Assembly: GCF_902652685.1 (NCBI RefSeq)
Contig: NZ_CACRUY010000023.1
Location: forward strand, 1-64,000
Direction: 5' to 3'
Length of the DNA: 64,000 bases
Origin: Mycobacterium sp. Marseille-P9652
GTDB taxonomy: Bacteria > Actinomycetota > Actinomycetes > Mycobacteriales > Mycobacteriaceae
The number at the start of each line of letters is the position of its first letter. Positions within the stretch are counted from its first letter, which is position 1. This document shows positions 14,825 to 59,322 of this stretch, piece after piece. The notes under the pieces are model-generated. The model saw only the letters and a list, made by a program, of their open reading frames with translations, searched no databases and was not told the origin of the DNA. The position numbers and the translations under genes are program-made.

Positions 14825-14844
14825 CGACTATGCCAGAAGCGGTG

Positions 14845-27139: not shown

Positions 27140-27159
27140 CCGCCTGCAACCCAGAGGCG

Positions 27160-28440: not shown

Positions 28441-28500
28441 GCAGCCGGGGCCACGTAGGTAAAGCAAGAAGCGGAATCGGACGAAAAGGACTCAACAGCA

Positions 28501-42241: not shown

Positions 42242-44527
42242 TCACCGAGGAAGTGACTTCGACCGACTTCCTTTCTTCGTAGCCCCTGCCGAAGCCTTCG
42301 GTTGCTGCGCAGGGCGGCCCGCCGCCTTCTTCGCAACCCTTGCTGAAGCTTTCGGTTGCTGCGCGGCTCGGGCCGCCGCCTTCTTCGCAACCGGGGCCGA
42401 CGCTTTCGGCTGCCGCGCCGGCCGTGCCGCCGCCTTCTTCACAACCCCTGAAGCTTTCGGCTGCTGCGCAGATCGGGCCGCCGCCCTCTTCGGAACCGGC
42501 GCTGACGTTTTCGCCTCCCGCGCAGGGCGGGTCGTCGCCTTCTTCGGAACCGGCGCTGACGTTTTCGCCTCCCGCGCAGGGCGGGCCGTCGCCTTCTTCG
42601 GAACCCGCGCTGACGTTTTCGCCTCCCGCGCAGGGCGGGCCGTCGCCTTCTTCACAGCCCGCGCTGACGCTTTCGCCTCCCGCGCAGGGCGGCCCGTCGC
42701 CTTCTTCACAGCCCGCGCCGGCGGTTTCGCTTCCTGCGATTGGGGGGCTGTGGCGATGCAAAGGACCTCGTCGAGGCTGGCGGTGCGTAGTCCGATAGCG
42801 GCTGCGCGCCAACCGAGTTCGGCGATAGGATCTGGGTCATTGGCCCCTAGGCCGCCAGCCCGATCGAGGCGAGCGGTGTCGAACATCGCCGGGCCGCTGG
42901 CTATTTCATCCGTGAGGACGTAGCGCTCGGCATAGGGTGCCCGGCGCGCCGCCGCCTCGGCCGCACAGACGCCGGTCAGCGTGAAGGCATCGGCGAAGTT
43001 TATTCCCACCTGGAGTACCTGTGGTTCGGCTTCGAGCACCGCAATCAGGCGGGTGATAAAATTCTCGGGCGCAAAGAACCGCCAACCCTGGCTCAGGTGC
43101 AGCCAGAACCGTCCACGGATCTGAGCGCGGAGCTTCGCGAGCTGTGTGGCGGGCCCGTCTCCGGCGCTGCAATCGACAAATTCGATGAACCTGTAGCGCT
43201 CGCGTAGCAGCGCACGATCGTAGGCCGCGAGGCCGGCACCGACCACCAGGAAGCGCCCGATCCAAAGTGGCGCATCGAGGCAGCAGTTCAGAAACGAGTT
43301 AATGGCGTGCTCGGTGGTGTCGCGGTCGGCCCCGGCGACCAGGCTAACGACTACGTTGCCCTGGCCCAGACGGGCGACCAGACGCTGCACCAGCGCGTCG
43401 GGGGGATACGATGCCGCCGCCTCGAGCATGGCCGGCACGCTGAAGTCGCGGTTGAGCGCGATCCGCTGCCGATCACCGTCGGGAATGTCGGCAAGCGCCA
43501 GCAGGCGCCGACACAGCGTGAACGCCTCGGCATGCATGCCCAGCTGGGAGGCGCACACCGCCTGCTCGTCGATCGCGCGCCAGGCGTAGACGTCCGCGCC
43601 GATAAATAACAGGTCGTTCTCGGGATAAGGAATTTGGGCGGCGCGCTGGGCGAACAAGTGACCGGACAGGTAGCGCTCCTCTTCGCGGTATCCCCGAGCG
43701 ATGGCATACAGCGGCTCAGCGCGGGCGGGTCGAAACTCCCAAGCCCTGAGGTAGGCGTCCTGAACAACCAACGACGGCAAATTGAGTTTCGCCATTGACT
43801 CCGCGAACCGCACGATCGAGTAATAGACCTCCTCGTCCGAGCCACCCATCTCTATCCGCTGTTCATACCACTTGCGCGCGTTGGCGAAATCCCCCAGATC
43901 AAAGTAGCTTTGGGCCAGATAAAACACCGACCGCCCATCCTCTGGGTTGCGTTCGACCTCGGCCAGCAACAGATCGCGGTCACGCGCGTACTTCCGCGGA
44001 TCCTGATTACGAGCACCGAGGCGACGAGATTCGACGTAGTAGTCACCCTCGAGGCGCCCAACGACGCAGTCGGACTCCCAAACGGCCGTCTCGTGGACGA
44101 CGCCTTCATAGCGCACCCGCACCCCGTCGCGGAACAACTGCGGACGCCAGTAAATGAAGGAGGCGTCTCCCAGGCGCATGCGATAGATGTCGGCGCTCAA
44201 TTGGGTGAAATCGAGTGTGCCCGTGACGATGTCGTCGGCGTCAATTACCCAGATATAGTCGCCATCGCCTTGGGCGAGGTTCAGTGCCTCGGTGCGGTTG
44301 TGGCCGAAATTGCGCCATGGTCGTTCGTGAAGCTCACCTGGGATCCCCAGACGGGCCATGTGTTTACCGATCACGTCCTGGGTCCCGTCGGTGGAACCGG
44401 TGTCGACGATCACCCACGAGCTGATATAGGGCGCGACCGAATCAAGCGTCTCCGCGACGACATCGGCCTCGTCTTTCACGATCATGTTCAGGCAGATCGC
44501 GGGGCCTGCGGTTACTCGTTTGGACAC
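42242..44527 (-). CDS. GT2 glycosyltransferase with TPR-like region and Lys/Ala/Pro repeat tail
   Basis: About 761 aa. Residues 1-150: GT-A glycosyltransferase (ICLNMIVKDEADVVAETLDS, WVIVDTGSTDGTQDV, YIWVIDADDIV). Residues 200-350: helical repeats (NPEDGRSVFYLAQSYFDLGD). Residues 350-590: a second domain also found in the gene at 52453. The final 180 residues are a basic tail of about nine 18-residue repeats of type REAKTSAPVPKKATTRPA. GTG 44527 is chosen as it precedes the conserved domain; no clear ribosome site was seen and upstream starts exist. It is the first gene of the accessory island. Confidence 0.75.
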   Translation of the reverse strand: MSKRVTAGPAICLNMIVKDEADVVAETLDSVAPYISSWVIVDTGSTDGTQDVIGKHMARLGIPGELHERPWRNFGHNRTEALNLAQGDGDYIWVIDADDIVTGTLDFTQLSADIYRMRLGDASFIYWRPQLFRDGVRVRYEGVVHETAVWESDCVVGRLEGDYYVESRRLGARNQDPRKYARDRDLLLAEVERNPEDGRSVFYLAQSYFDLGDFANARKWYEQRIEMGGSDEEVYYSIVRFAESMAKLNLPSLVVQDAYLRAWEFRPARAEPLYAIARGYREEERYLSGHLFAQRAAQIPYPENDLLFIGADVYAWRAIDEQAVCASQLGMHAEAFTLCRRLLALADIPDGDRQRIALNRDFSVPAMLEAAASYPPDALVQRLVARLGQGNVVVSLVAGADRDTTEHAINSFLNCCLDAPLWIGRFLVVGAGLAAYDRALLRERYRFIEFVDCSAGDGPATQLAKLRAQIRGRFWLHLSQGWRFFAPENFITRLIAVLEAEPQVLQVGINFADAFTLTGVCAAEAAARRAPYAERYVLTDEIASGPAMFDTARLDRAGGLGANDPDPIAELGWRAAAIGLRTASLDEVLCIATAPQSQEAKPPARAVKKATGRPAREAKASARAVKKATARPAREAKTSARVPKKATARPAREAKTSAPVPKKATTRPAREAKTSAPVPKRAAARSAQQPKASGVVKKAAARPARQPKASAPVAKKAAARAAQQPKASARVAKKAAGRPAQQPKASAGATKKGSRSKSLPR
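42290..42735. repeat. 54-bp in-frame tandem repeat coding for the basic tail
   Basis: The period is 54 bp (18 codons): near-identical unit starts lie at 42514, 42568, 42622 and 42676, with more degenerate copies below 42514. The repeat number could vary without breaking the frame. Confidence 0.85.
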
Positions 44528-45052
44528 CGCTAAGAGTCTACAGAGCAATCGCCTATCGTGGATCGGGTTGTACGCAAAGTAGCTGCGGCTATGGGTGATT
44601 GGTGTTGTTCGGCGAACACCGCACGTTTTGGGGCCATCGGCGATCGTCGTCGGGCGTGTCGCCGTAATGACAGCACCGCCTACCGGCTGCACTTCGGCCC
44701 CGAGAAACGCCCGTTAGACTCGGCTAACGAATGCGCCTGTCGTGCAATGGGATAAGGGACGATTCGAGACCCACCATTCCGAGCGGGAAGGCAATTCCTT
44801 TTGCAGGGTCGTGCACTTGACTGACTTCTTCGAGGGGATCCGCTGGTCGCGACTTCAGCGAGGGTGAATTCGCCGAGGCGGCGCTGCCCGTCCGCGATCA
44901 AATCCACCTGGCGCCGGACCAAGCGGCAAGCTAGTACCGGACGAATACGGATGGCCGAACAGCACGACGAGATTCACAAACAATGACGACAACTCAGGGG
45001 ACAAGCTCAGCAGGTGCCCTCAGCCGGAAGCCAAGCCGCACCAGCTGACGAG
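44528..45052. other. Intergenic region between the glycosyltransferase and PE_PGRS genes
   Basis: 525 bp. No convincing gene, RNA or repeat was found. It should include the promoter of the glycosyltransferase gene; composition is less GC-rich near 44,530-44,600. Confidence 0.5.
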
Positions 45053-46021
45053 CTATCCGGTCGCACCGTGTGGACCCTGGCCACCTTGTGCGCCCTGAGC
45101 ACCCGGGTGACCCAAGAGCCCGGGGGGACCGCCGGGACCGCCTGCGCCGCCGCCACCGCCGGGACCGCCGCCGAGCGGGCCGTTACCGCCGGGGCCGCCT
45201 TGCCCGCCGTTACCGCCGTCACCGCCGTCGCCCATGAAGAATCCGCCCCGACCACCGGCACCACCGGCACCACCGGCGCCACCGGCGCCATCAGTAGCAC
45301 CCGGAGCACCCGCCCCGCCGGCGCCACCATGACCACCAGGACTGAAGAAGAACCCTCCGGCGCCGCCGGCACCACCGGCACCGCCTGTCGTACCGGGCAA
45401 AATGGCTGATCCGCCGGGACCGCCGGCTCCGCCGGCACCGTACAACCAACCACCGCGGCCGCCCGCACCACCGGCGCCACCAGGACCGCCCATGCCGCCG
45501 GCCCCGCCCCGACCGATCAGACCCGCCGACCCACCAGCACCGCCGGTCGCGCCCGTAGCCGTGCTATTGCCACCGCGACCGCCGTCGCCGAACAACCACC
45601 CGCCGGCACCGCCGGCCGTCCCCTGCGCCCCGCTGGTCCCATTCGCACCGTTGCCGATCAGCGGACGCCCCGTGTTCTGCAGGAACCACGCATCGATCGG
45701 ATCGGTGCTCGCCGCAGCTTGCAACATTTGCGCGGCATTCTGCGCCTCGGCGGTGACATACGAAGCCCCGCTGGCCGCCATGGTGCGCGTGAACTGGTCA
45801 TGGAAGGCCTGCGCCTTCGCGAGGAGCGCCTGATACTCGTCCGCATACTGACCGAACAGCGAAGCGACCGCCGTCGACACCTCATCGGACGCCGCCGACG
45901 CCACCCCGGTCGTCGGAATGGCCGCCGCCGACGTGGCGTTCGCCAAGTTTGAACCGATGCTGTCGAGGTTCGCAGTCACCCACTGGACGACGGCGGGGTC
46001 AATATAGAAAGGAGAGCTCAT
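45053..46021 (-). CDS. PE_PGRS family protein
   Basis: 322 aa. Residues 1-98 are a PE domain (DSIGSNLANATSAAAIPTTG, YQALLAKAQAFHDQF). A linker carries the diagnostic GRPLIGNGANGT, and then about 190 residues of GGA/GGX repeats. ATG 46021 follows AAGGAG by eight bases. PE_PGRS proteins are type VII-secreted cell-surface proteins. The N-terminus MSSPFYIDPAVVQWV departs from the usual MSFV form. The PGRS part stays glycine-rich to its end with no C-terminal enzyme domain. Confidence 0.88.
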   Translation of the reverse strand: MSSPFYIDPAVVQWVTANLDSIGSNLANATSAAAIPTTGVASAASDEVSTAVASLFGQYADEYQALLAKAQAFHDQFTRTMAASGASYVTAEAQNAAQMLQAAASTDPIDAWFLQNTGRPLIGNGANGTSGAQGTAGGAGGWLFGDGGRGGNSTATGATGGAGGSAGLIGRGGAGGMGGPGGAGGAGGRGGWLYGAGGAGGPGGSAILPGTTGGAGGAGGAGGFFFSPGGHGGAGGAGAPGATDGAGGAGGAGGAGGRGGFFMGDGGDGGNGGQGGPGGNGPLGGGPGGGGGAGGPGGPPGLLGHPGAQGAQGGQGPHGATG

Positions 46022-46785
46022 AACATCGCTCCTTAAGTTCATCGCCAGCGCTGCATAAGGGCATCGTCAGAAACGCGATCCGAGCAGCTAAATGAAGACC
46101 GTAATGCACGCAGGTCGGTTACCGATACGGCTTTCGATAAACTGGGAACAGTCGGGTTTACGAGCCTTAAAATTGGACGCAGTAGGGTTTATAAACTGGA
46201 CAAAATCGTGTTTCTAGGCTTTCAAACTGGATCTACTCGGGTCTATAAACTGGACACCGTCGGGTTTATACCCCATATAAATGGACACGGTCGGGTTTAG
46301 TTCAGCACGGCCTCGGCAAAGTCGCGATGTCAGCCTGTGGCCCGGCTTAGCGGTTCGTGACAGCCCCACCGGAATGTCGATCACCTTGCGGATCACGGTA
46401 TCCCGGCAGGTGCCCTCGCTACCACATCCAGGGCGGCGGTGCTGACCGTCACCGCGCAAGTTGCAGAACACACTTGGGGGTCGCCGTCGACAGCGGCGTC
46501 AGTGATCGTCACACCGAGTCCGACGGTGCGCACGATCGCGTCGGCAACAACAGCCCCAGAAGACGACGTAGGGTCAGGCACTGGGCTCGCCACGTAGCAG
46601 GAATGCGGCTTCGACACCTGCATCCTCTACCGCCCGGGGCCCGTCCCAGCTCACCGGCACAACCCGATCAAATCGAGCGTGCCAACCTCAGCTGCACTCC
46701 ATTCCGAAAGAGCCGGTAAAGGATCAACCCGATAAATAAGCTCGGTGCCGCTTCTGCGAAAAGAGTAAGCAACCGACGAGAAATT
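46022..46785. other. Intergenic region between PE_PGRS and the TylF-like gene
   Basis: 764 bp. The part nearest PE_PGRS holds the degenerate repeat cluster at 46136-46300. Bases 46300-46785 have short open frames on both strands, none with family resemblance or a ribosome site, so I call no gene there. Confidence 0.5.
46136..46300. repeat. Six degenerate copies of a short motif with inverted-repeat ends
   Basis: Copies of type tataaactggacaccgtcgg followed by gtttata occur at about 46137, 46169, 46192, 46223, 46244 and 46277. The best copy (46244-46270) starts tataaac and ends gtttata, which are reverse complements. The cluster begins about 115 bp before the PE_PGRS start codon on its promoter side. 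Confidence 0.75.
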
Positions 46786-47565
46786 TTAACGTATCGGCGG
46801 GTGGTCAACACGCCAGTACACGCCGATCCCGTCAATCGGCAGGATGGGCGATGAGATCCCGTAACGTTCACGAAAATCGTGTACGGCCTTCGCGCAAACT
46901 TCTATGACACCATAATCATCCACTATTACGAAGCCGCCGTATGACACTTTGTGATAGAGTTCGTTCAGCGCCTCGATCGTCGATTCATACATATCGCCGT
47001 CGAGCCGCAATACAGCTAATTTATCGATCGGCGCGCATGGCAGCGTATCCTTGAACCAGCCTTCAAGGAAAACAACCCTCTGATCCAGTAGCCCAAAGCG
47101 GCGGAAGTTGTCCTCAACAGCGTTGCGCGACACTCGAAGTTCGGCAACGGCGTGAAGTTGGCCCGCAGCAGAGTTCACGTCGATGGGGAAATTCCGAGGG
47201 TCCGGTGGTGGAAGTCCAGCAAAACTGTCGGCAACAAATACGCGTCGATTGTCGTCGCAATATGCCGCCAGAACACCCTTCATCAAAATACATGCGCCAC
47301 CCCGCCACACTCCGGTTTCAATAAAATCGCCCTCAACACCATCCAGTATCACTGTCTCGCAGGCATGGCGTAAGTTTCGCATACGAACGCTTCCAATCAT
47401 AGAGACGGAAAGCGAAGGCCAGTCGCGTCCCAGTAGGCGGGTGTTGGGATCGAACTCGCCCTGCCCACTCATGGGCTTATCCTCGAACAGCATGCCCGTC
47501 AAGGACGCCTCGAGAAGATTAAGATAGCGGTGGATCAACCTGCTTCGATTGCAATCGTCGCTCAT
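46786..47565 (-). CDS. TylF/MycF-family O-methyltransferase
   Basis: 259 aa. Family features: GDFIETGVWRGGACILMKG (SAM site), RRVFVADSFAGLPPPD, and the metal-binding motif LRLDGDMYESTIEALNELY with VIVDDYGVIE. TylF-type enzymes methylate sugar hydroxyls on macrolides and glycolipids and require Mg2+. Within a glycosyltransferase island it probably methylates a sugar of the final glycan. Base composition is lower in GC than the backbone. Start at 47565 without a clear ribosome site. Confidence 0.83.
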   Translation of the reverse strand: MSDDCNRSRLIHRYLNLLEASLTGMLFEDKPMSGQGEFDPNTRLLGRDWPSLSVSMIGSVRMRNLRHACETVILDGVEGDFIETGVWRGGACILMKGVLAAYCDDNRRVFVADSFAGLPPPDPRNFPIDVNSAAGQLHAVAELRVSRNAVEDNFRRFGLLDQRVVFLEGWFKDTLPCAPIDKLAVLRLDGDMYESTIEALNELYHKVSYGGFVIVDDYGVIEVCAKAVHDFRERYGISSPILPIDGIGVYWRVDHPPIR

Positions 47566-48067
47566 TTTGGTTCTGTTTCGCCATCCTTGAAGCAGTGTGC
47601 AATTACGGTACGCTGCATTTCCGCTTTGGCGGTTCTAGCAGCTGGTCGGATGATCTCGCCGTCGAAAATGATTGCCGACGCATTGAGCGCCGATTACACC
47701 TTGTCGCCCATCGCGTGACCACAGCCCGTGGAGTCTACACGGTAGGGACTGGAGCCTCGCCTAGATATTAAGCGTGCGTTGTCAGAGGCCACAGGCTTGC
47801 CGACAGAGCCTCCGATGCGGGCACGAGGGCCATCTCGACCCCGGCTCCAGCGACGAAATCAAGCACCGTGCTGAAGGGCGCGGCCTTACCCGACGACACC
47901 GTCACCGATGGCGCGCCGTGACCGCCGTCGACGCTGACCGGGATTCACGAGCACGCCCAAAACCAAATCAAGATCGAGATCCAAACCGGCTCGATCAGGC
48001 CACCACGTCCGTCCTGCCATGCATCCGAACTAATCCGGCCTGACCTGCCTTGATATCGAGAAAATAC
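47566..48067. other. Intergenic region with possible coding remnant
   Basis: 502 bp between two genes on the minus strand. Bases about 47,760-47,910 read as a plausible but unidentified peptide on the minus strand (GKAAPFSTVLDFVAGAGVEM) without start or stop context, perhaps a gene remnant. Nothing else is recognised. Confidence 0.4.
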
Positions 48068-50968
48068 TCAAAGAATCTCTCGAATTGCCGCGCAGGCGCC
48101 CTGTACATCAATGTTCCACCGTTTGTGGATCTGCGCCGGATCGGCGGGGTCTTGCTGTCCATAGATAATGCCATAGCGGTGTCCCAATGAACTGAGCATC
48201 CTGGAGTGGTCGCAGATGAAAGTATCACTCGATTCGATGTCCACTACAGTTGTGCCGGGCGGGCAGAAACGAGTGCTAAAAAGCCCTGCTCCGCCCAAGG
48301 CGACAACGCATTTAGCTCGTGCAAACATCCCAATCTGCTCTTTAAGTGGTAGCTGCTCCGGTTCAACCGTCTGGAAACCCAACTCGCCCAGCGCGGCGAT
48401 AAGATCGCATTCGTTTTGCAAAACCCGGTGGTAAGGAGGTTTGGCCGAAACGGAGAGGCGCGACACGAAGATTCGCTCGCCAAAAGTGTCTGCCGTATCT
48501 TGCCGGCAGGCATTCGCCAAGGCGGCGAAGATCTGCTTTTCAGCTTCACTCACTGACAGGTTTGCCAGCGAATATTCCACGGTTAGGACGTCACGGCAAA
48601 AATATGTTTTGCCCGGATCGTGCTCCAGCACTTGAGCCCTCTCGATGCCCAGCAGTTGCAAAAGGTCCCGCTGCCAGGGATACGCAGCCCGGCAAAAGAA
48701 TTTCCTTCCGTTCCCGAATGTCTTGAACTGAGCGCATTTGGGAAGGACAGTTGCGATCCATCTGGCCCAGTTGTCGGGTTCGAGAGGAGTCGCGAGGAAC
48801 ACCGGTTCCGCGATCGATTCGACATCGTACGGGCTTAGCGTGTTGCAATCGATAGCAATCTCATCGCCCTCAAACTCGATATGAGGCTTTACGCCGGGGT
48901 AGGAATTGGAAAACGCAGGATGCGCCGCCAACTCCATGAATTGCCGCTTAAACCCCCCGGTACCCCCGCCGAACCCGCCTGTCCGCGTTTCGCACGACCA
49001 CAGCCCGGATTTACTCACCACATGGTTGGAGCCGAATAGAAGCACGTCGGGTCGCGAAACCAAGTAGCTTCCATGGATATGGGCGCCCGTACTGAACCAG
49101 TCGGGTATCTCCCTACCGGAGAGGTTGCAAACGAACTCAGGCGGCCTCAATCGATCTACTATCACTGGCGCTTCGATGACTGTCAGCGTGCCATCCGATG
49201 GCGGCCAGTCTCGGAGCAGAAATCTGCCTCGGGGCAACAAATCCGGCTTCCGCTCCGACGACGCGCGAACTAACAATTCTTCATTTTGCGTCTCGTTGAT
49301 TTCATTACTCACTGATGCCATCCCGGAACGTGGCGTGTAAAAGGTGAAAAGCTCGGTGAGGCGGTCGGGTTCCTCGCACAGCGGTCGCGAAGCGGTAAGT
49401 TCGAGTCTGTCCCACAACGACCTCAGCCGGTCCTCGTCGAGAACCGATCCGGCGTACTGATCGACTATCTCGTAATAACGATCGGCAAGAACGCTCGATT
49501 CGGGGTCCAGCCGGCTGATCGCGACCAAGCCGGTAGGCGGACAGTCCAGCACGTGTAGCCGCAGGTCCGGGCGGTACTCGCGCAGAATCGGCAGCAGCTT
49601 CCACACATCACCGGTCCACCAATAAGCGGTGTCTCCTTCGGAGGGATCGCCATGGTGGTACTGCCGCAACGCCATCCGCGTGTTCGACGGCACGCAATCA
49701 TGCAACAGAATCAGTGAGCGGGGATGACAGGCGGCCTCCGCGCCGATGAAATCGCGCAGCAGGACTTCGAACCGGTGCAGGCCGTCCAGGAAGGCCAAAT
49801 CCACTGGTCGTCCCAGCAATGCGGGTACATTTTCTGTCTCGAAGAAGTCGTCTGAGGTCATCTGAAACAACAACGTGCGTTTCCGGTTGCCGGTGGCACC
49901 GGCCTTAAGTTGGAACTGCGGGTCCACCGCGATCGTGTCGCAGCTAGCAACACTTAGCGAATCCCCTGTCGCGGTGCCGACCTCCAGATAACTGCGCGGC
50001 GTCAAGTGGGTATGCAGCGCGGTGAGAAATTCGATGTAGTAGACGCCGGACAAGCGAAACGCTGCAGGCGCGACCGCACGCTTACCAGTGCTGGTTTGGG
50101 ATTCGCCGGCAGCCGGTTCGCTGGCAGCTTCGGCCAAACGACCTTCGGCCAAACCATTTTCGATAAAGTGGGCATAGGCATTCCGGAAACCCCCGCGATC
50201 AACGGCTGCCGCAACGTCGGGATAGCGCCTCAAATAGGCTGCTTCAGAGAATTCTGGTGATGGATCAAATATCGTCGGCGAATCATTCGCGAGATAATGA
50301 TGCAATGCGCAGCGCCAGGAACCCCTCTCGATTGCGGACGCAACTTCGGGATACCGTAGCAAATACCATGGCGGATCGAAGTACTGCGACGCACGCAGCT
50401 CATATCGGCCACGTTCGATCCGGTCAAGGAAGTGATGGAAAGGCCCTGCGTGACCGCTCAGCCAGGAAGCATTAGGGCCAAGCCCGGCCTGGTAGATCTT
50501 CGGATCAAAGAATAAATGGGCTCTGCGGCATTCCTGCGCGCCCCGGCGGAGAAAGTGATCGTAACCGTTGACGAGATTGGCCGCGTCGAGCACCTCGTCG
50601 GTTAGGTCGGGATTCTGGTCGCGATAATATCCTTCGCTGAAGAGCCAATGCGGTGCAAGGGTCCGGTGACCGTGGCGACAGTAGTGGTCGAAGCCGGAGA
50701 GGTATTGGGCGTTTTGCACATCCCGAACGACATTCGGGTACGCCATGCGATACCACGTTTCGTCGAAATATCGGTTTGGGGAGTGCCCTATCCGCTGTCC
50801 AACCTGAAGATAGAAGCTAAGAAGCGCCGTTGGGCTGGCATTACCAAGTGTGCCACGTACGGTCGAATAGGCGTGCAGGTACCAAGAAGGGTCGAAAATC
50901 GCCCACGAGGGCGAGGCCTCTCCCGGCAGCTTCAGGAGTTCTGCCGCGGACAAACCGGCTGGTAGCAT
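48068..50968 (-). CDS. Mosaic protein: FDPxWYLxxYPDV repeats, methyltransferase, GT61 glycosyltransferase
   Basis: 966 aa. Residues 20-285: five to six repeats of about 45 residues with the core FDPSWYLHAY / FDETWYRMAYPNV / FDPPWYLLRYPEV. Residues 303-550: class I methyltransferase of the Methyltransf_24 type (YLEVGTATGDSLSVAS, LAFLDGLHRFE, LILLHDCVPSN). Residues 640-966: GT61-like glycosyltransferase ending KCVVALGGAGLFSTRFCPPG. The combination suggests a surface polysaccharide enzyme that both transfers and methylates. Residues 303-545 are duplicated as the gene at 51358-52113. Confidence 0.82.
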   Translation of the reverse strand: MLPAGLSAAELLKLPGEASPSWAIFDPSWYLHAYSTVRGTLGNASPTALLSFYLQVGQRIGHSPNRYFDETWYRMAYPNVVRDVQNAQYLSGFDHYCRHGHRTLAPHWLFSEGYYRDQNPDLTDEVLDAANLVNGYDHFLRRGAQECRRAHLFFDPKIYQAGLGPNASWLSGHAGPFHHFLDRIERGRYELRASQYFDPPWYLLRYPEVASAIERGSWRCALHHYLANDSPTIFDPSPEFSEAAYLRRYPDVAAAVDRGGFRNAYAHFIENGLAEGRLAEAASEPAAGESQTSTGKRAVAPAAFRLSGVYYIEFLTALHTHLTPRSYLEVGTATGDSLSVASCDTIAVDPQFQLKAGATGNRKRTLLFQMTSDDFFETENVPALLGRPVDLAFLDGLHRFEVLLRDFIGAEAACHPRSLILLHDCVPSNTRMALRQYHHGDPSEGDTAYWWTGDVWKLLPILREYRPDLRLHVLDCPPTGLVAISRLDPESSVLADRYYEIVDQYAGSVLDEDRLRSLWDRLELTASRPLCEEPDRLTELFTFYTPRSGMASVSNEINETQNEELLVRASSERKPDLLPRGRFLLRDWPPSDGTLTVIEAPVIVDRLRPPEFVCNLSGREIPDWFSTGAHIHGSYLVSRPDVLLFGSNHVVSKSGLWSCETRTGGFGGGTGGFKRQFMELAAHPAFSNSYPGVKPHIEFEGDEIAIDCNTLSPYDVESIAEPVFLATPLEPDNWARWIATVLPKCAQFKTFGNGRKFFCRAAYPWQRDLLQLLGIERAQVLEHDPGKTYFCRDVLTVEYSLANLSVSEAEKQIFAALANACRQDTADTFGERIFVSRLSVSAKPPYHRVLQNECDLIAALGELGFQTVEPEQLPLKEQIGMFARAKCVVALGGAGLFSTRFCPPGTTVVDIESSDTFICDHSRMLSSLGHRYGIIYGQQDPADPAQIHKRWNIDVQGACAAIREIL

Positions 50969-51357: not shown

Positions 51358-52113
51358 TCAGTAGAAGGTGAATAGCTCGGTCAGGCGGTCGGGTTGCTCG
51401 TAAAGCGGTCGCGAAGCGGTGAGTTCGAGTTTGTCCCACAATGCCCTCAACCGGTCCTCGTCGAGAACCAATCCGGCGTACTGATCGACGATCTCGTAAT
51501 AACAATCGGCAAGAACGCTCGATTCAGGATCCAGCCGGGTGACCGCGACCAGGCAGGTAGGCGGACAGTCCAGCACGTGTAGCCGCAGGTCCGGGCGGTA
51601 CTCACGCAGAATCGGCAGCAACTTCCACACATCACCGGTCCACCAGTGAGCGGTGTCTCCTTCGGAGGGATCGCCAGCCCGGGGCTGCCGCGAGGCCATC
51701 CGCGTGTTCGCCGGGACGCAATCATGCAGCAGGATCAGTGAGCGGGGATGACAGGCGGCCTCGGCGCCGATGAAATCGCGCAGCAGGTATTCGAACCGGT
51801 GCAGGCCGTCCAGGAAGGCCATATCCACTGGCCGTCCCAGCAGCGCGGGGGCGTCTTCTGTGGCAAAAAAGTCGTCTGAGGTCATCTGAAACAAAAACGT
51901 GCGTTTCCGGGAGCCGGTGGCGCCGGCCTGAACTTGGAACTCCGGGTCCACCGCGATCGTGTCGCAGCTAGCAACATTCAGCGAATCCCCTGTCGCTGTG
52001 CCGACCTCAAGATAGCTGCGCGGCGTCAAGTGGGTGTGCAGCGCGCTGAGAAATTCGATGTATGAGACGCCGGACAAGCGGTACTTTCCGGTCGCGATGT
52101 CATTTTCGTTCAT
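51358..52113 (-). CDS. Stand-alone Methyltransf_24-type methyltransferase (duplicated domain)
   Basis: 251 aa. Its whole length from residue 11 matches residues 303-545 of the neighbouring 966-aa protein at about nine residues in ten, including LEVGTATGDSLNVAS, AFLDGLHRFEYLL and LLHDCVPANTR. A new ATG and short leader (MNENDIATGKY) replace the repeat region, and a stop follows FTFY exactly where the GT61 part would begin. The clean ends suggest a functional domain copy. Confidence 0.82.
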   Translation of the reverse strand: MNENDIATGKYRLSGVSYIEFLSALHTHLTPRSYLEVGTATGDSLNVASCDTIAVDPEFQVQAGATGSRKRTFLFQMTSDDFFATEDAPALLGRPVDMAFLDGLHRFEYLLRDFIGAEAACHPRSLILLHDCVPANTRMASRQPRAGDPSEGDTAHWWTGDVWKLLPILREYRPDLRLHVLDCPPTCLVAVTRLDPESSVLADCYYEIVDQYAGLVLDEDRLRALWDKLELTASRPLYEQPDRLTELFTFY

Positions 52114-52452
52114 CGGGCGGGCCCTCTCGTCGCACTTACTTGATCGGTCAGGCAGCAGCGCCGCCCAGGCAACGCCGGCTCAGGTCAAACGCGGCGCCGC
52201 CGCACGACTTACGGCGTCGCCGGCGTGCCCGGAGCGCCGAAATCACGGTAACCGAGCCCAATCCGCTCACATGGCGGGACCAGTCGCACCGGAGTGAAAT
52301 CTCGACATGATGTTTCGCAGGCATCTTGATGCTTCTCGTCGGCCCCGTGATCACACACGAGCTTGAAAGGCTGCCCTGAGCCCAGCGGGCAACCGGGTGA
52401 CTGACAAATCCGCACAACGCAGCGCTCCTCATTCCTTTACTATGCTGCACCC
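52114..52452. other. Divergent intergenic region
   Basis: 339 bp between the duplicated methyltransferase (minus) and the CgeB-like gene (plus). It must contain both promoters. The AT-richer stretch just before 52453 (tttactatgct) could hold a -10 element. No gene is seen. Confidence 0.45.
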
Positions 52453-54657
52453 ATGCTGTTTGCGGTCGCGGTTGTGGCACCTCCCAGCAATCCGACCGTC
52501 GGCGGGGGTTTTCGCGAGGTTGCGGAGGCAGTGCACCATGCTCTTCTGGCGCTTGGCCATGACTCGGTGCTGACCAACCGCCTCGACCTCGACGACCGTC
52601 GCACCATTGTGTTCGGCGGAAACCACCTCCTCCACTACGGCCTGGAGCCGCCCAAAAATCCCGTCTTCTACAACCTTGAGCAATTGGGTGACGACTCGCC
52701 GTGGATGGCGATGCCTGACTTCGTCGACCTTTTCCGGCGCTACTCGAATTGGGATTACAGTCAAGCCAACATCGAATACCTCGCTTCCCTGGGACTGCCC
52801 CGGCCCACCTACGTTCCGATCGGATACGTGCCCGAGCTGACACGGATCGCCCCAGCCCCCGAGGACATCGACGTCCTTTTCTACGGCATGCTCAGCGAGC
52901 GCCGCTACGCCGTTCTCAGGGACCTGCACGACCGAGGCTTTCGTGTCAAATGGCTATCGGGTGCCCTCGGTGCGAGCCGCGATGCCTGGATCGCACGCTC
53001 GAAGATCGTCCTTAATATCCACTACTGGGACGCGAAAATCTTCGAGATTGCGCGGGTTTCGTACCTTCTCGCCAATAGGCGGGCGGTGGTCTCCGAGCGT
53101 GGTGCCGATCCGAGATTGGAATGCGACCTGGGGTCCAGTGTGGCTTTCGCGGACTACGACGGATTGGTCGAGCGCTGTGTGGAACTCCTCGGCGACGAGC
53201 GCGCGCGGCGCGAGCTCGCCGAGCGGGGCTACCAGACTTTCTCCGCTCGCGACCAGGTCGCCGTCGTACAGCGCGCTCTGACGGAAGGCATCCAGGGTGT
53301 CACCTACCAGACCGCTGCGCGAGACGAAGCGTGCATCGATGTGCGCCTCAAATACAAAGGCCACAGCGCAGACCATCAGCTCCGCAACCGCAACCTGCTC
53401 AGGCATAAGGCTGACCAAGAACGCGATCAGTTGCTGGCCAAGGTCAGACACAATCCCGAGGATGCGCGGTCGGTCTTGTTCCTAGCCCACACCTACTTCC
53501 AATTGGGCGATTTCGTCGACGCCCGCAAGTGGTATGCGCGTCGGGCCGAGATGCGCGGCTGCGACGAGGAGATCTACTACTCGATGTTTCGGCTCGCGCA
53601 GTCAATGCAGCAATGCGGCGAACCGTGGCCAGACTGCGAAGACGCCTACCTGAGCGCCTGGTACTTTCGACCGACCCGCGCCGAGCCGCTACTTGCCGTC
53701 GCCACAGCGTATCGCCAACTCGAGCGCTACCGGCTCGGTTACCTGCTTGCCCAGCGCGCCGGCGAAATCCCATTTCCCGAGCAGGATCTCCTTCTCCCGG
53801 CAGAGATCACCCAGGTTTACGCTTGGCGCGCAACCGATGAGCGGGCGGTGTGCGCATCCCGGACCGGTGAGCACGCCGAGGCGTTCACGCTGTGTCGGGG
53901 CCTGCTGGGCAGGCTCGACCTGCCCGAGCCTGATCGGCAAAGGATTGCGGCCAACCGCGACTTTTCGGTGCCGGTCATGCTCGAGGCGGCCGCACCCTAC
54001 CCCGACGCAGTGATGCACTTACTGGCCGCAGTTCCCGGTAAGTCCGAAGTCACCGTCAGCCTGATCGCCGGGCCCGACCGCGAGACCACCGAACAGACCC
54101 TGAACTCTTTCCTGAACTGCTGCCTCGATGTGGCACGCGTCGGGCGCTTCCTGGTGCTCGATGCCGGCCTATCCGCGCGCGACCGCACGAAGCTGCGCAA
54201 ACGCTACGGTTTTCTCGAGTTCGCCCGTAGCCGATCCGGCGACAAGCCCGCCGCCCGGCTGGCGCGGCTTCGCGCGCAAATCAACGGACGATTCTGGCTG
54301 CACCTAGGCAAAGGCTGGCGGTTTTTCGCCCCCGAGAACTTCATCACCCGCCTGAGCGCGGTGCTCGACGCCGAACCGCAGGTGTTTCAAGTGGGCATCA
54401 ACTTCGAAGATGCGGTCAAGCTGACCGGCGCCAGCGCAGCGGAGGAGGCTGTGCGCCGGGCACCCGACACCGGCCGCTACCTGCTGACCGATGTGGTGGC
54501 CAGTGGCCCGGCGATGTTTGAGACCGCACGCCTGGATCGGGCCGGCGGTATGCACAACCCAGATCCGCCGGCCCAATCTGGCCGACTGGTCGCCCGCGCC
54601 GGGCTGCGCACCGCCAGCCTCGACGAAGTGCTCTGCATCTCAGGTCTGGCTGTCTAG
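52453..54657 (+). CDS. CgeB-like glycosyltransferase fused to TPR and shared C-terminal domain
   Basis: 734 aa. Residues 1-270 resemble CgeB/GT4-type glycosyltransferases (GGGFREVAEAVHHALLALGH, VLFYGMLSERRYAVLRDL, KIVLNIHYWDAKIFEIARVS). Residues 300-734 match the middle of the glycosyltransferase at 42242-44527, including NPEDARSVLFLAHTYFQLGD, DRETTEQTLNSFLNCCLD and GRFWLHLGKGWRFFAPENFI. It ends LDEVLCISG, just where the basic tail begins in the other protein. No clear ribosome site was seen. Directly followed by transposase debris. Confidence 0.8.
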   Translation: MLFAVAVVAPPSNPTVGGGFREVAEAVHHALLALGHDSVLTNRLDLDDRRTIVFGGNHLLHYGLEPPKNPVFYNLEQLGDDSPWMAMPDFVDLFRRYSNWDYSQANIEYLASLGLPRPTYVPIGYVPELTRIAPAPEDIDVLFYGMLSERRYAVLRDLHDRGFRVKWLSGALGASRDAWIARSKIVLNIHYWDAKIFEIARVSYLLANRRAVVSERGADPRLECDLGSSVAFADYDGLVERCVELLGDERARRELAERGYQTFSARDQVAVVQRALTEGIQGVTYQTAARDEACIDVRLKYKGHSADHQLRNRNLLRHKADQERDQLLAKVRHNPEDARSVLFLAHTYFQLGDFVDARKWYARRAEMRGCDEEIYYSMFRLAQSMQQCGEPWPDCEDAYLSAWYFRPTRAEPLLAVATAYRQLERYRLGYLLAQRAGEIPFPEQDLLLPAEITQVYAWRATDERAVCASRTGEHAEAFTLCRGLLGRLDLPEPDRQRIAANRDFSVPVMLEAAAPYPDAVMHLLAAVPGKSEVTVSLIAGPDRETTEQTLNSFLNCCLDVARVGRFLVLDAGLSARDRTKLRKRYGFLEFARSRSGDKPAARLARLRAQINGRFWLHLGKGWRFFAPENFITRLSAVLDAEPQVFQVGINFEDAVKLTGASAAEEAVRRAPDTGRYLLTDVVASGPAMFETARLDRAGGMHNPDPPAQSGRLVARAGLRTASLDEVLCISGLAV

Positions 54658-55153
54658 TGCAACTGCCCGAAACCACCTCGGTCGAGGATATTCGAGAGTC
54701 TCGGTTCGGTGTTTACGTCTGGGCCGAGCTCCCGCGCCTGTGGGTCGACGGCATCCATCTCAAGGTCCGCCCAGAGAAGGCGAAACTCTGCTTGCTAGTG
54801 ATGCTGGGCGTGCGCGCTCGTGGCCGCAAGGAACTGGTGGCGATCAGCGACGTCTGTCGCAAATCCAGCGAGTCGTGGGCCGATCTGCTGCGCGATTGCC
54901 GTTGCCGTGGGATGATCGGCCGCGGTGCTGGCTGTCAGGCACGGGGCGCTGGGCTTCCGGAAAGCGGCGCTCGAGGTATTCCCGGCAAAGAACAAAGGTG
55001 CTGATTTCACACGCAACCCAATGTCCTTGCTGCGCTGCCGAAATCAGCGCACCGGGGCGCGCTAGCACCGATCAAGGACATCTACAATGCTTAGGATATC
55101 GACAGGCTCAGGTCGCGATCGAGGACCTGCCGAAAGGGTTCGCAAAACAGTGA
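54657..55153 (+). pseudogene. IS256-family transposase remnant
   Basis: Fragments in at least two frames match Mutator/IS256 transposases (for example IS1081): LWVDGIHLKVRPEKAKLCLL, GVRARGRKELVAISD, ESWADLLRDC, then after frame changes GAALEVFPAKN-like sequence and QAQVAIEDLPKG. Both ends and the catalytic C-terminus are missing. No terminal inverted repeats were seen. Confidence 0.8.
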
Positions 55154-55185
55154 TTCAATCCGAGATCGCACGATAGGTTTCGGGG

Positions 55186-58100
55186 ATGGACGGTCAGGAA
55201 TCCCGTATCGGACACAAAGCCCCCCCGGCTGCCCTCTCGTTCGTTGACCAATACGAGTTGATTTCCGAGTCATCGTTCTTCAGCGCCGATTTTTATCTGT
55301 GCAAGTACAAGGATGTCGCCGACCGCGGAGTCGATCCCGTCCTGCATTACCTGGAACACGGCGCGGCGGAGGGGCGCGATCCGCACGAGGAATTCGACAC
55401 CGCGCACTATCTGGAGCAATGCGCCATGCGCGGGCTCAAAGCCGAAAACCCCTTGCTGCACTTCCTGATCGAGGGCCGGGAACTGGGCATTTCGCCCAAG
55501 CGCGACATACCCGGCCAAGACGGGAAGGGGGTGGAAAAGCGTGACAATGCCGCGCAGGCCGAACTCGACGAGGTGCGGCAATCGGGCTTGTTCGACTGGC
55601 ACTACTACAACAATGCCTGCGGGACGAGCTTCCAGACCGAACACGAGGCGCTGAGGCACTTCTTCTTCGAAGGCTACCGGGAAGGTCGGCGGCCAAACTT
55701 GTACTTCGACCCCGCCTGGTATTTGCGCGTCTACCCTGACGTCCGCGATGCGGGCGTCCAGCCGCTGTATCACTTCGTGATAATGGGCGATCTCGAAGGG
55801 CGGCAACCAAGTCGCATCTTCGACGCGGCCTGGTATCGCCGTGCCTACGCCATCCCCGAGAACGAAAACTCGCTCGCCCACTATCTCGCGAATCGCACAA
55901 CCTGCCGGTTCAGCCCGCTGCCGGAATTCGATGTTGAGTACTACGGGTCCGCCAACAATGACGTGCGCGACGCCGGCATAGACGCGTTCGAGCACTTCCT
56001 GTTCACCGGCTACCGCGAAGGACGCAATCCTTCACCTTCGTTCAATATCCGCTACTACGCAAAGCGCTACCTGGGCGGTGACCTCGAGAAAAACCCGTTC
56101 CTGCACTACCTCGATCACAAGCATCAACCCGGCGTGTACGGCGCGCCTCCCGATGACGAGGCCTCCATTCCGCGCGCGGTAAAGCAGTTCACCCGGCCCT
56201 CGGCGGACTTCGAGGAGTTCAAACCCATCCCACCGTCGGCGCCGCGCAAGGCCAAGGTGCTGGCCTACTACCTGCCGCAGTTCCACACCTTTCCCGAGAA
56301 CGATCGTTGGTGGGGCAGGGGCTTTACCGAGTGGACCAACATCGCGCGCGGCGTGTCGCGCTTCAAGGGGCACTACCAGCCGCGCATTCCGCGCGATCTC
56401 GGCTTCTACTCGCTGGATTCCATTGACACGCTCAAGCGCCAGGTGGCGATGGCCAAGGGCGCCGGCATTTACGGTTTTGTTTACTACTATTACTACTTCA
56501 ACGGCAAGCGGCTGATGGAAAAGCCGCTGGAGCAGTTCCTCGACGATCCGTCCATCGACATGCCGTTCTGCCTCCTGTGGGCAAATGAGAACTGGACGCG
56601 CCGCTGGGACGGCGCTGAGAGCGATGTACTGATTTCCCAAGACTACGAACCCGACGACGACGAGCACGTGCTCGAAGGCTTCGTCCACCACTTCAAAGAC
56701 AAGCGTTACATCCGCATCAACGGCCGTCCGCTGCTGATGATCTATCGCGCGGACACCATCCCGGAGCCGAAGAAGTCGCTGATACGCTGGCGCGCCCTGT
56801 TCAAGGAAAGGTTCGATGAGGATCCCATTTTGATAATGGCGCAGTTCTATGCGACTAATCCGGACGAGTTCGGCTTTGACGGCGCTGTCGAGTTCCCGCC
56901 ACACAAGCTGGCAGCTGACCTGCCGCCGATGTACGACCCGCCGATGTACGAACAGCTTGAACTCATCGACATCGAGTTCACAGGCCAAATATTTAATTAC
57001 GACGACGTCGTTGCCCGTTCGGTTGACGAACCAATGCCTTCGTTCCCGCTGATAAAGACGGCTGTGCCGAGTTGGGACAACGACGCGCGCCGGCAAGGCG
57101 ACGGGCTTGTTCTCCAGGGCTCGACGCCCGCGAAGTATCAGGCTTGGCTCGGCCAGCTCATCGAAAAGGCATGCGAGAAGCCGTTCTTCGGCGAACACTT
57201 CGTCTGCGTCAATGCCTGGAACGAGTGGTGCGAGGCGGCGTACTTGGAGCCGGACCTTTATTATGGCTCGGCGTACCTGAACGCCACCGGTCGTGCTGTC
57301 GTCGGCGCCGTGTCGGGCGACTACAAGCTTCTGCTGGTCGGTCATGATGCCTGGCCCCACGGCGCGCAACATCTGCTCGTCAATATCGCGCGTCGGCTGC
57401 AGAGCGACTGCGGTGTGCAGGTCGAGTTTCTGCTGCTGGATGGCGGCACGCTGGAGGAAACCTACCGCGACGTGGCACCAGTGACCAAGGCCGACGGAGG
57501 GACGCTTGCGGCCAAGGTCGAAGGCTTCAAGATGCGCGGCTTCGCGCACGCGATCGTCAATACCGTTGCGGCCGGGCTGATCCTGCCCCATCTGCGGAAT
57601 CACGGCATCGATTCGATCTGCCTCGTCCACGAGTTGCCGCGCATTATCCGCGAAAAAAACTTTGCGGCCAGCGCCAAGGCGGCGCTGGAACTGAGCCGTC
57701 ATGCCGTGTTCCCTGCCGCTGTCGTACGCGACCAGGTCGCCGCCGAAGTCGGAGTGGAAGTGGATGACCGCATGCTGTTGCTACCGCAGGGTATGTACAC
57801 GCAGCTCGCCGAGCCGGAGGATGGCGGTGCGGCCATCCGTGAGGAACTCGGTATCGCCGCCGGCGAGAAGCTGGTGCTCGGGATCGGTTACGCCGACTTA
57901 CGCAAGGGCTTCGACCTGTTCCTGCAGTTGTGGCGGCACACGAACCACCTGTGCAAGCAGCGAGTGCATTTTTGCTGGATCGGTGACATATCCCAGCCCG
58001 TGCGCGACTGGCTGACCGCGGATATCGACGGCGCGAAAAGTACGGGCAGTTTCCACATGCCGGGTTATCGAAAGGACGTCGAGACTTTCTTGTTCGCGGC

Positions 58101-59322
58101 CGACGCTTTCGTGCTCACCTCGCGCGAGGACCCTTTTCCCACCGTCGTTCACGAGGCGCTCGCCGCGGGGTTACCGGTGCTGGTGTTCGACGGGTCGGGT
58201 GGCATGCCGGATTTCCTGGCCCGGCATCGGATGGGCACCGTGGTGCCGCCCGGCGATGTCATCGCCATGGGCAAGGAACTGGCCCGTCTGGTGCGCGGTG
58301 GGAAACGTGCGGAGGATGCCGCGCGACGCAAAGAGTTCGTGGGCACCCATCTCGATTTCGGTGACTACGTTCGACAGCTGTTGCGGCTGGCGATTCCCCA
58401 GTTGCCTACCGTCTCGGTGGCCATCCCCAACTACAACTATGCGCGCTTCATGCCGGCGCGGCTGGCATCGGTGTTCCAGCAGACCCACCCCGTGCACGAG
58501 ATAATGGTGCTCGACGACTGCTCCAGCGACGACAGCCTGGACGTGATTCCGCAGATCGCCAGGGAGTGGAATCGCAAGCTGACGCTCCTGCCCAGCGACG
58601 CGAACTCCGGGTCGGTGTTCGCACAGTGGCGCAAGGCCGCGGAACTGGCGACCGGCGAGTACCTGTGGATCGCCGAGGCCGACGACCTCACGGACCCCGA
58701 GTTTCTCGACGCCGTGGTCGGCGCGATGCAGGCCGACCCCGCGATCAGCCTCGGCTTTTCCGACAGCCGTACGATCGACTACGACGGCAGCCCGCTGTGG
58801 GACAGCTACAAGAACTACTACGAGCACGACGGCCGCGGCACACTGGCTACGTCGGCCACATTTGACGGGGATGACTTCGTGCGCCGTCATCTCGCCGTTC
58901 GCAATCTCATCCTCAACGTCAGTGCCGTGGTCTGGCGCCGGGAGGCCTTATTGCGCGCGCTCGATGCCTGCCAGGAAGAACTCAAGACTTTCCGCATGGC
59001 CGGTGACTGGCGCTTGTATCTGGAAGTACTGACTGCACCGGGTGCGCGCATCGCCTACATCGCCGATCCTCTCAACGTGCACCGGCGCCATGCAGAAAGC
59101 GTCACGCATGCCCTCAAGGCAGACAAGCACGTTGCCGAGATCGCGCAGTGCCATGCGCTTGGCGCGGAGAGATTGAAGTTGCCGGCCAGGGTACGCAGCC
59201 TGCAGACGAAGTATCGGCAAAGCGTCGAGGATCAGCTCAAGGCCGCGCCGATGGATAAGGCCGGTAGCGCCGCCTCGAAGCGCAGGAGAGCAAAACCTGT
59301 GGTATCGGCGCAGCGTCGGTAG
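55186..59322 (+). CDS. Giant mosaic glycosyltransferase: repeats, WbsX, GT4 and GT2 domains
   Basis: 1378 aa. Residues 25-330: FDPAWYLRVYPDV-type repeats as in the 966-aa protein. Residues 353-700: WbsX domain (YYLPQFHTFPENDRWWG, FTEWTNIARG, CLLWANENWTRRWDG, NAWNEWCEAAYLEPD). Residues 710-1060: GT4-like (LLVGHDAWPHGAQHL, VLGIGYADLRKGFDLFLQLW, EALAAGLPVLVFDGSGGMPD). Residues 1070-1330: GT2 (VSVAIPNYNYARFMPARLAS, DDCSSDDS, WIAEADDLTDPE). Such proteins assemble O-antigen-like chains. A basic tail (SKRRRAKP) closes it. Confidence 0.85.
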   Translation: MDGQESRIGHKAPPAALSFVDQYELISESSFFSADFYLCKYKDVADRGVDPVLHYLEHGAAEGRDPHEEFDTAHYLEQCAMRGLKAENPLLHFLIEGRELGISPKRDIPGQDGKGVEKRDNAAQAELDEVRQSGLFDWHYYNNACGTSFQTEHEALRHFFFEGYREGRRPNLYFDPAWYLRVYPDVRDAGVQPLYHFVIMGDLEGRQPSRIFDAAWYRRAYAIPENENSLAHYLANRTTCRFSPLPEFDVEYYGSANNDVRDAGIDAFEHFLFTGYREGRNPSPSFNIRYYAKRYLGGDLEKNPFLHYLDHKHQPGVYGAPPDDEASIPRAVKQFTRPSADFEEFKPIPPSAPRKAKVLAYYLPQFHTFPENDRWWGRGFTEWTNIARGVSRFKGHYQPRIPRDLGFYSLDSIDTLKRQVAMAKGAGIYGFVYYYYYFNGKRLMEKPLEQFLDDPSIDMPFCLLWANENWTRRWDGAESDVLISQDYEPDDDEHVLEGFVHHFKDKRYIRINGRPLLMIYRADTIPEPKKSLIRWRALFKERFDEDPILIMAQFYATNPDEFGFDGAVEFPPHKLAADLPPMYDPPMYEQLELIDIEFTGQIFNYDDVVARSVDEPMPSFPLIKTAVPSWDNDARRQGDGLVLQGSTPAKYQAWLGQLIEKACEKPFFGEHFVCVNAWNEWCEAAYLEPDLYYGSAYLNATGRAVVGAVSGDYKLLLVGHDAWPHGAQHLLVNIARRLQSDCGVQVEFLLLDGGTLEETYRDVAPVTKADGGTLAAKVEGFKMRGFAHAIVNTVAAGLILPHLRNHGIDSICLVHELPRIIREKNFAASAKAALELSRHAVFPAAVVRDQVAAEVGVEVDDRMLLLPQGMYTQLAEPEDGGAAIREELGIAAGEKLVLGIGYADLRKGFDLFLQLWRHTNHLCKQRVHFCWIGDISQPVRDWLTADIDGAKSTGSFHMPGYRKDVETFLFAADAFVLTSREDPFPTVVHEALAAGLPVLVFDGSGGMPDFLARHRMGTVVPPGDVIAMGKELARLVRGGKRAEDAARRKEFVGTHLDFGDYVRQLLRLAIPQLPTVSVAIPNYNYARFMPARLASVFQQTHPVHEIMVLDDCSSDDSLDVIPQIAREWNRKLTLLPSDANSGSVFAQWRKAAELATGEYLWIAEADDLTDPEFLDAVVGAMQADPAISLGFSDSRTIDYDGSPLWDSYKNYYEHDGRGTLATSATFDGDDFVRRHLAVRNLILNVSAVVWRREALLRALDACQEELKTFRMAGDWRLYLEVLTAPGARIAYIADPLNVHRRHAESVTHALKADKHVAEIAQCHALGAERLKLPARVRSLQTKYRQSVEDQLKAAPMDKAGSAASKRRRAKPVVSAQRR

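Follow-up and report, generated by a model that had tools for sequence, protein, structure and literature searches.

The window analysed here is a stretch of 64,000 nucleotides from Mycobacterium sp. Marseille-P9652 (contig NZ_CACRUY010000023.1, positions 1 to 64,000), and the subject is a set of large modular genes on an island that starts in its right-hand part. The island is about 33 kb long, is unusual in composition, lies between kdpE and ppx and extends past the window to about base 75202 of the contig, which itself runs on to base 76659. Its features are collected in Table 1 and the genes are named by their first coordinate. The four large genes described in an earlier note on this DNA, made from the letters alone, were all found where it had placed them, and the sharing of modules between them was confirmed. 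Residues 196-647 of 42242 and 281-730 of 52453, which comprise the TPR part and a conserved C-terminal domain (CTD), are 61% identical over 454 amino acids (aa; BLASTP, E 2e-180), and the N-terminal heads of these two proteins, GT2 in 42242 and weakly CgeB-like in 52453, are unrelated. The FDPxWYL repeats of 48068 and 55186 are 32% identical over 160 aa (E 5e-12), and the methyltransferase part of 48068 (aa 299-544) is nearly duplicated in the separate gene 51358 (87% identity). All three similarities are far beyond chance.

Table 1. Modular genes, candidate acceptor gene and other features in and beside the island.
Positions	Strand	Feature	Basis
42242..44692	-	GT2 + TPR + CTD + Lys/Ala/Pro-rich tail	Pfam GT2 2.7e-11, weak TPR; shared module 42752-44107
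52453..54657	+	CgeB-like N-terminal half + TPR-CTD module (53293-54654)	Weak TPR Pfam matches
48068..50968	-	FDPxWYL repeats (~50114-50896) + Methyltransf_24 (49337-50074) + GT61	Pfam Methyltransf_24 3e-7, GT61 1.2e-16; BLAST
55186..59322	+	FDPxWYL repeats (~55279-56175) + WbsX/GH99-like + GT4 + GT2	Pfam WbsX 3.3e-125, GT4 4.5e-22, GT2 2.3e-19
45053..46042	-	PE_PGRS surface protein, collagen-like C-terminal tail ending GATG; proposed acceptor	Pfam PE 1.6e-27, PGRS 4.1e-17
46786..47565	-	TylF-type O-methyltransferase	Pfam PF05711, 1.3e-94
51358..52113	-	Free-standing Methyltransf_24 gene	87% identical to domain inside 48068
60165..60809	+	Class I methyltransferase	Pfam; relatives in three Bradyrhizobium WYL-WbsX loci
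59355..59904	+	Broken remains of second WbsX-type gene, several frames and in-frame stops	Sequence comparison
60849..61176	-	Broken partial copy, methyltransferase part of sulfotransferase-methyltransferase gene (contig 64890-67394)	84% and 92% identity
62593..63261	+	Insertion-sequence transposase, integrase core domain, within island	Pfam rve 1e-21
41402..42082	+	kdpE response regulator, left boundary of island	Translation; kdpD near ppx in most compared relatives

The GT2 head of 42242 has an intact catalytic motif (DTGSTDGT and DADD), and to judge from relatives its true start is likely to be near 44527. Pfam searches recovered the WbsX, GT61 and Methyltransf_24 domains that the earlier note had expected; CgeB stayed below threshold, since 52453 matched CgeB/Glyco_trans_1_2 (PF13524) at E 0.007 with 16.7 bits against a cut-off of 25, and 'CgeB-like' is therefore a weak label only. 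A third gene of this type, beyond the window (L120:8953-11151), gave no Pfam match at E 0.001. NCBIfam gave no name for 46786, 48068, 51358 or 52453, and a sequence search of the PDB with the WYL repeats returned nothing significant. Instead of the three methyltransferases first counted, the window part of the island has four such domains (46786, inside 48068, 51358 and 60165), and more lie beyond. The protein encoded by 45053 has a PE domain followed by PGRS repeats, the defining arrangement of a PE_PGRS protein. The Lys/Ala/Pro repeat tail of 42242 (window 42242-42750) is 169 aa long, and such tails measure 43-222 aa across the 10 tailed members of its clade. It resembles histone- or HBHA-type tails, and may bind polyanions.

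The distribution of the module across mycobacteria was examined by scoring the best four candidates per genome. At E <= 1e-8 the TPR-CTD module was present in 71 of 396 sampled genomes of the genus, often in several copies; G291 and G344, with module fragments only, were left unclassified. Matches were also obtained in 11 of 251 genomes of a family sample and 8 of 296 of a phylum sample. Outside the genus, G639 and G713 alone in these two samples have a complete or almost complete module; the other non-genus matches cover the TPR half, mostly in GT2-TPR proteins of ~380 aa. TPR-CTD is, on these searches, a mainly mycobacterial family. The TPR assignment draws on weak Pfam matches and on a profile of 60 modules that matches designed TPR structures at 3e-21.

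Among 98 distinct modules from the collected loci, 69 have a GT2 head, 22 a CgeB-like head and 7 another. Further partners are Methyltransf_24, Methyltransf_23 and Sulfotransfer_4, all C-terminal, GT2-GT2-RgpF-WsaF, which stands in front of the module, and GT2-GT2 or CgeB, which stand behind it. The shuffling is thus wider than had been claimed. In a midpoint-rooted FastTree of the 98 modules the GT2 heads are basal, while in the crown the Lys-tailed GT2 clade, which includes 42242, has as its sister a clade whose heads are WYL-like and CgeB-like; a single foreign GT2 head, that of L136, is nested within the CgeB clade. This placement of the two kinds of head, L136 included, suggests that heads have probably been exchanged more than once. 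One locus (L134 of G228, 6298-18488) has four tandem genes with five GT2-TPR-CTD units, one gene having a fused sulfotransferase domain and one having two units.

The catalytic motif of the GT2 heads is widely kept (DxDD-type in 65/70, DTGSxDxT in 68/70). The glycosyltransferases matched by 42242 in the PDB were GmaR (E 7.8e-7), SunS (0.018) and 7msk (0.05), that is, a flagellin glycosyltransferase, a peptide glycosyltransferase and a similar protein. The GT2-TPR-CTD protein might instead act chiefly on PE/PPE/PGRS export or expression, as a regulator or chaperone, with glycosyl transfer secondary or lost. The tail of 42242 and its 9 tailed relatives, which looks nucleic-acid- or polyanion-binding, would suit such a role. 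A precedent exists in GmaR, which is bifunctional and also an antirepressor (PMC9638930). We nevertheless consider this reading very improbable, given the retention of the GT2 motif in 65/70 heads and the swapping of the head for other enzyme domains, which a pure regulator would not need.

In the CTD stretch WLHLxxxW, GQG, GEG, GAG or similar was found in 68/98 modules. The other 30 fell outside the search pattern, and LGMGY, LESGW and LGHGG are among the forms in the 12 of them that were inspected. At the same position G713 has EDRW and G639 has GDEW. With EDDW as the active form, the series EDRW, GDEW, GxGW may be read as the erosion of a metal site, and the CTD would then be a pseudo-glycosyltransferase. 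The order of strands and helices in the CTD of 52453 fits a GT-A or Rossmann-like domain, which proves nothing at the confidence of that model (see below).

The genes beside the module were then compared. A PE_PGRS gene lies on the same strand just upstream of all 10 Lys-tailed GT2-TPR-CTD genes and of their sister L190. In the window's clade the GT2 gene is thus linked in 11/11 cases to a gene whose exported product is the putative acceptor. Among the remaining 87 modules the same rule flagged only the CgeB gene of L122, as the next gene of the same pair. The PE_PGRS proteins of the clade form a single family, whose conserved tail approximates GAQGAQGAQGAxGATG (8 of the 11 members were taken into the alignment).

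Counting all GT2-type loci, a PE, PPE or glycine-rich gene is present within 2 kb at 38 of 62, and at two of five further loci; neighbour linkage is therefore not universal. The layout is specific to the clade. A PPE gene is divergent at seven loci (L142, L151, L152, L174, L176, L187, L197); a glycine-rich gene is convergent at about 1 kb in nine (L127, L144, L147, L155, L165, L166, L171, L184, L194), convergent at 8-13 bp in two (L167, L168) and on the same strand 137 bp upstream in two (L157, L182), and there are others too. As a control for distance, flagged side-windows numbered 35/133 at 0-2 kb and 7/121, 4/112 and 3/93 at 2-4, 4-6 and 6-8 kb. The contrast between 0-2 kb and 2-8 kb (35/133 vs 14/326) gives a Fisher p of 7e-11, in which the two sides of a locus, related loci and multiple loci from one genome are not independent, and the excess persists when the Lys-tailed clade and CgeB loci are removed (24/90 vs 7/234). 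Pfam confirmed all six flagged neighbours submitted to it, as PGRS (3), collagen (1) and PPE (2). At 11 loci, ten of a clade of ~565-aa proteins plus L170, a related methyltransferase gene lies directly upstream of the GT2 gene (within ~120 bp or overlapping the called start), and in five of these a further methyltransferase, of FkbM type, lies beyond the glycine-rich gene. At L145:1-2373 a very long collagen-like GATG/GSTG region (Pfam collagen 2e-33; 18% threonine), cut by the contig end, is divergent from a GT2-TPR-CTD-CgeB gene, and its product would be a good acceptor candidate.

Exchange of partners was seen in the 15 genomes classified as having CgeB-TPR-CTD. Nine of them carry the PE_PGRS-GT2 pair, with GT2-TPR-CTD proteins 78-100% identical. 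The other six lack the pair, and in all six a glycine-rich gene with a Sec-type signal, judged by eye, is found 0-2.8 kb from the CgeB-type gene. This second family, here called Sec-PGRS, is present in all of the six and in none of the nine. When all candidates were scored, the best head-containing match to 42242 in the six was a 60% relative in G292, with no PE neighbour in its locus (L193). A search of the 396 genomes with the Sec-PGRS N-terminal domain, in which the best seven candidates per genome were scored, found it in 14 genomes, which include each of the six but not one of the nine. When 19 genomes were searched again and every candidate was scored, the counts were 6/6 and 0/9, in agreement with the earlier searches. 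Sec-PGRS was likewise not found in G139 and G259, the two genomes with the pair but no CgeB-TPR-CTD.

The N-termini of the PE_PGRS and Sec-PGRS partners are unrelated, and their C-termini are alike. All 17 readable partners of the crown clade (10 PE_PGRS and 7 Sec-PGRS) end in [ST]G after Gly-X-Y triplets; L189, in which the end of the PE_PGRS frame is shifted, and partners cut by a locus or contig end (such as L145, L157 and L182) are omitted from this count. The [ST]G end was found in 0/15 readable partners of other GT2 clades and in 0/12 readable unlinked relatives of Sec-PGRS (20 regions, of which 12 had a reading frame, two of these, L264 and L283, being doubtful). The genome of the window has three further PGRS matches with a readable stop, and none of these has such an end.

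The setting of the island has to be considered beside these results. The gap between kdpD and ppx is 33.8 kb in the window's genome and no more than 6.2 kb in 16 of the 19 relatives compared (within 2 kb in 10); in the other three the two genes are far apart (G282), are on separate contigs (G120), or ppx was not found (G051). The proportion of G and C at third codon positions (GC3) is 0.59-0.80 in the measured island genes against 0.90 in kdpD. Given the short gap in most relatives, the lower GC3 and the transposase inside, an insertion of about 33 kb seems to have taken place, at a site closed or almost closed in most compared relatives. In its right half Pfam identified a GSCFA protein, a sulfotransferase-methyltransferase, a methyltransferase, a sulfotransferase and the third CgeB-type module protein. 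On the 3' side of these follow ppx and a DUF501-like gene, which share a neighbourhood in M. tuberculosis too. A tRNA-Leu followed by an ordinary-looking pair of a PE gene (27592-28440) and a PPE gene (28501-29706) occupies window 27159-29706, at least 12 kb from the island. A shuffled N-terminal domain of ~135 aa (L120:5636-7027 aa 31-165; L122, L131, L132, L137, L138, L160) is common to four sulfotransferases, two Methyltransf_24 proteins and one TylF protein. Two large proteins of the same clusters (L137:16263-19076 and L161:4424-7867) have a stretch of ~110 aa in common, the latter with two methyltransferase domains and a weak DUF4214 match.

Variable chromosome regions collect PE, PPE and PGRS genes as well as acquired islands, so the association might be a matter of neighbourhood with no functional meaning, and the GC3, the transposase and the 33.8-kb gap are all what such a history would leave. 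This is nonetheless improbable, as the excess of neighbours is confined to 0-2 kb, orientation is conserved within clades, the two kinds of partner are exclusive (9 vs 6 in 15 genomes) and the C-terminal tail is limited, among the proteins read, to linked partners.

As to the origin of the outer genes, a search of genome contigs with 55186 gave 79 loci, 51 of them matching over most of its length, and 48 of these 51 are from Alphaproteobacteria by record title (39-60% identity); the closest relative is from M. kumamotonense (88%), which likewise has a short second WbsX piece. Relatives of 60165 were found in the WYL-WbsX gene loci of three Bradyrhizobium (L024, L026, L043; 46-48% identity), and one relative of 51358 is in such a locus of a Rhodopila. 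In the genus WbsX (PF14307) was found in only 5/396 genomes. This outer part of the island was probably acquired from Proteobacteria. Linkage in relatives, on which the earlier note depended, held for the CgeB-type module gene with the WYL-WbsX gene in M. kumamotonense and for PE_PGRS with GT2-TPR in the window's clade, but WbsX is found in only those few genomes of the genus, so that the cluster must be called a mosaic whose outer genes vary, and the answer is mixed. A single fixed pathway was rejected, as the outer genes differ between genomes.

All three domains proposed for 55186 were matched by Pfam, the WbsX domain over the full PF14307 profile. A structural model of aa 1-720 (37 sequences) reached a mean predicted local distance difference test score (pLDDT) of 80.6, with the FDPxWYL repeats modelled as all-helical units at pLDDT ~90. 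In a Foldseek search of the PDB with this model ranks 1-37 were one 'glycoside hydrolase-like protein' and GH99 or MANEA chains (E 6e-9 to 4e-6, probability 1.0 at the top, TM by target ~0.54-0.62). E680 and E683, invariant in the 37 sequences, align with the GH99 NEWHE motif, which by sequence alone reaches only E 0.26. The modelled region aa 346-715 thus shows both the GH99 fold and the Glu pair of NEWxE, a catalytic pair to judge by entry titles (E333Q, E336Q). Because the fold is GH99-like and the Glu pair is kept, the label 'glycosyltransferase' of PF14307 is doubtful, and a glycosidase or transglycosidase is a fair alternative. A GH99-like fold of WbsX would correct a common label.

The earlier note had proposed a methylated surface polysaccharide. 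A methylated glycan is plausible because methyltransferases are repeatedly fused to module genes or directly beside them; the surface polysaccharide itself is not supported by the genes scanned. No priming transferase, flippase, polymerase or ABC exporter was found among the Pfam-scanned island proteins (13 open reading frames of the window and 5 right-half proteins; smaller frames and the rest of the genome were not scanned), so that among these the island lacks the genes of a Wzx/Wzy- or ABC-transporter-dependent polysaccharide locus, and PGRS or PPE neighbours recur. The product could still be a methylated, perhaps sulfated, surface polysaccharide or a glycolipid like a lipooligosaccharide (LOS) or glycopeptidolipid, its carrier and export genes lying elsewhere and the glycan holding PGRS proteins non-covalently. 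GH99-like-GT4-GT2 and GT61 proteins, RgpF/WsaF relatives, methyltransferases and sulfotransferases are typical of polysaccharide loci, and loss of LOS in M. marinum is reported to alter PE_PGRS release (PMC5706390). This reading would, however, leave unexplained the basal GT2-TPR-CTD genes beside PGRS, PPE or PE genes and the shared C-terminal tail, and we regard it as unlikely.

The best explanation, held with moderate confidence, is that the horizontally acquired island encodes a dedicated modular system that would glycosylate and methylate an exported glycine-rich PGRS surface protein, here that of 45053. The GT2-TPR-CTD protein 42242 would start the glycan in the cytoplasm, its TPR holding the acceptor as in FlmG, and the CTD, perhaps a GT-A-like domain without the metal-binding motif, would be a non-catalytic docking or glycan-binding part. 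Paralogues with the TPR-CTD kept and the catalytic head swapped (52453 and the third copy beyond the window) would act on the same acceptor. The WYL-repeat enzymes (methyltransferase-GT61 and GH99-like-GT4-GT2), the free methyltransferases and the sulfotransferases would then extend, methylate and sulfate the glycan, and the glycosylated protein would leave by ESX or Sec, so that no lipid-carrier flippase or polymerase would be needed. Sequential cytoplasmic glycosylation of PGRS before export is the simplest account because a candidate acceptor gene adjoins, carrier and export genes are lacking in the scanned island proteins and the partners are exchanged. The sequences themselves show the domain anatomy, the sharing of the module, the linkage of the genes, the exchange of partners and the common C-terminal tail, whereas the protein acceptor, the sequence of reactions, what the TPR and CTD do, the modification of the glycan by methyl and sulfate groups and the way of export are inferences. 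A joint picture covering all these genomes is offered only tentatively: PGRS-type proteins would be glycoproteins whose collagen-like [Ser/Thr]-Gly tail is docked by the TPR-CTD with its eroded CTD, and the swapping of glycosyl-, methyl- and sulfotransferase heads or tails would give species-specific methylated, sulfated glycans on ESX-exported PE_PGRS and Sec-exported PGRS proteins.

Several results weigh against protein glycosylation. At 24 of the 62 GT2-type loci there is no PE, PPE or glycine-rich neighbour within 2 kb, including a clade beside serA and leuB (L140, L141, L149, L159, L181, L188; neighbours were read for five), and only 4 of 15 CgeB-only loci have such a neighbour. Ten non-mycobacterial GT2-TPR loci showed no association, the one glycine flag (L243) being Arg-rich and probably in the wrong frame. 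The counts are not independent, because the loci are related and some genomes give several. Comparison by hhalign of the CTD (96 sequences) with 70 GT2 heads and with the GT2 of 55186 gave no significant link, and the model of 52453, made from only three sequences, has a pLDDT of 38, which leaves a GT-A fold of the CTD unproven. The conserved tail would also fit a signal for export or for anchoring.

Among mycobacterial surface proteins the PE_PGRS family is large and little understood. If the proposal is true, some of them gain a chemistry, a testable acceptor site in the C-terminal tail and an enzyme that can be removed, and a glycosylation module whose catalytic heads are swapped in evolution would have been found. 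As a glycine-rich gene often adjoins module genes in other mycobacteria, dedicated decoration is suggested there also, and such enzymes may attach methylated sugars to some of these little-understood glycine-rich surface proteins. In the literature searched, which excludes most subscription journals, no title or opening of an abstract reported a glycosyltransferase dedicated to PE_PGRS proteins.

Among known systems the LOS locus of Mycobacterium marinum is similar in its mycobacterial glycan genes, its methylated sugars and its effect on surface PE_PGRS; it differs in its glycolipid product, and the TPR-CTD module is not described in the part of that paper seen (PMC5706390). SunS (PDB 7msp/7msn) has a GT2 domain related to that of 42242, which itself is far below the cut-off of NCBIfam TIGR04195 (21.3 vs 350 bits), and SunS has no CTD. 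It acts on a dedicated peptide, the acceptor being a small bacteriocin. BclA of the Bacillus exosporium has no PE or PGRS part, and its transferases are not known to be of the GT2-TPR-CTD architecture. It is nevertheless a collagen-like Gly-X-Y surface protein that bears glycans (PMC8968730). GmaR of Listeria, the nearest PDB match of 42242, has an N-terminal glycosyltransferase, a central TPR that its authors propose to recognise flagellin, an extra C-terminal domain and a protein acceptor; that domain consists of antirepressor helices and not a CTD, the acceptor is flagellin, and the text available describes no exchange of heads (PMC9638930). FlmG of Caulobacter crescentus is likewise a modular cytoplasmic protein O-glycosyltransferase, in which the TPR part binds the flagellin acceptor, which the glycosyltransferase part alone does not, and the latter transfers the sugar (PMC7591256). 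In FlmG the TPR is N-terminal, the catalytic domain is of GT-B type and the acceptors are flagellins (PMC7591256), whereas in the system of the window the GT2 head precedes the TPR, a conserved CTD follows it, heads are exchanged and the linked proteins are PGRS, PE or PPE.

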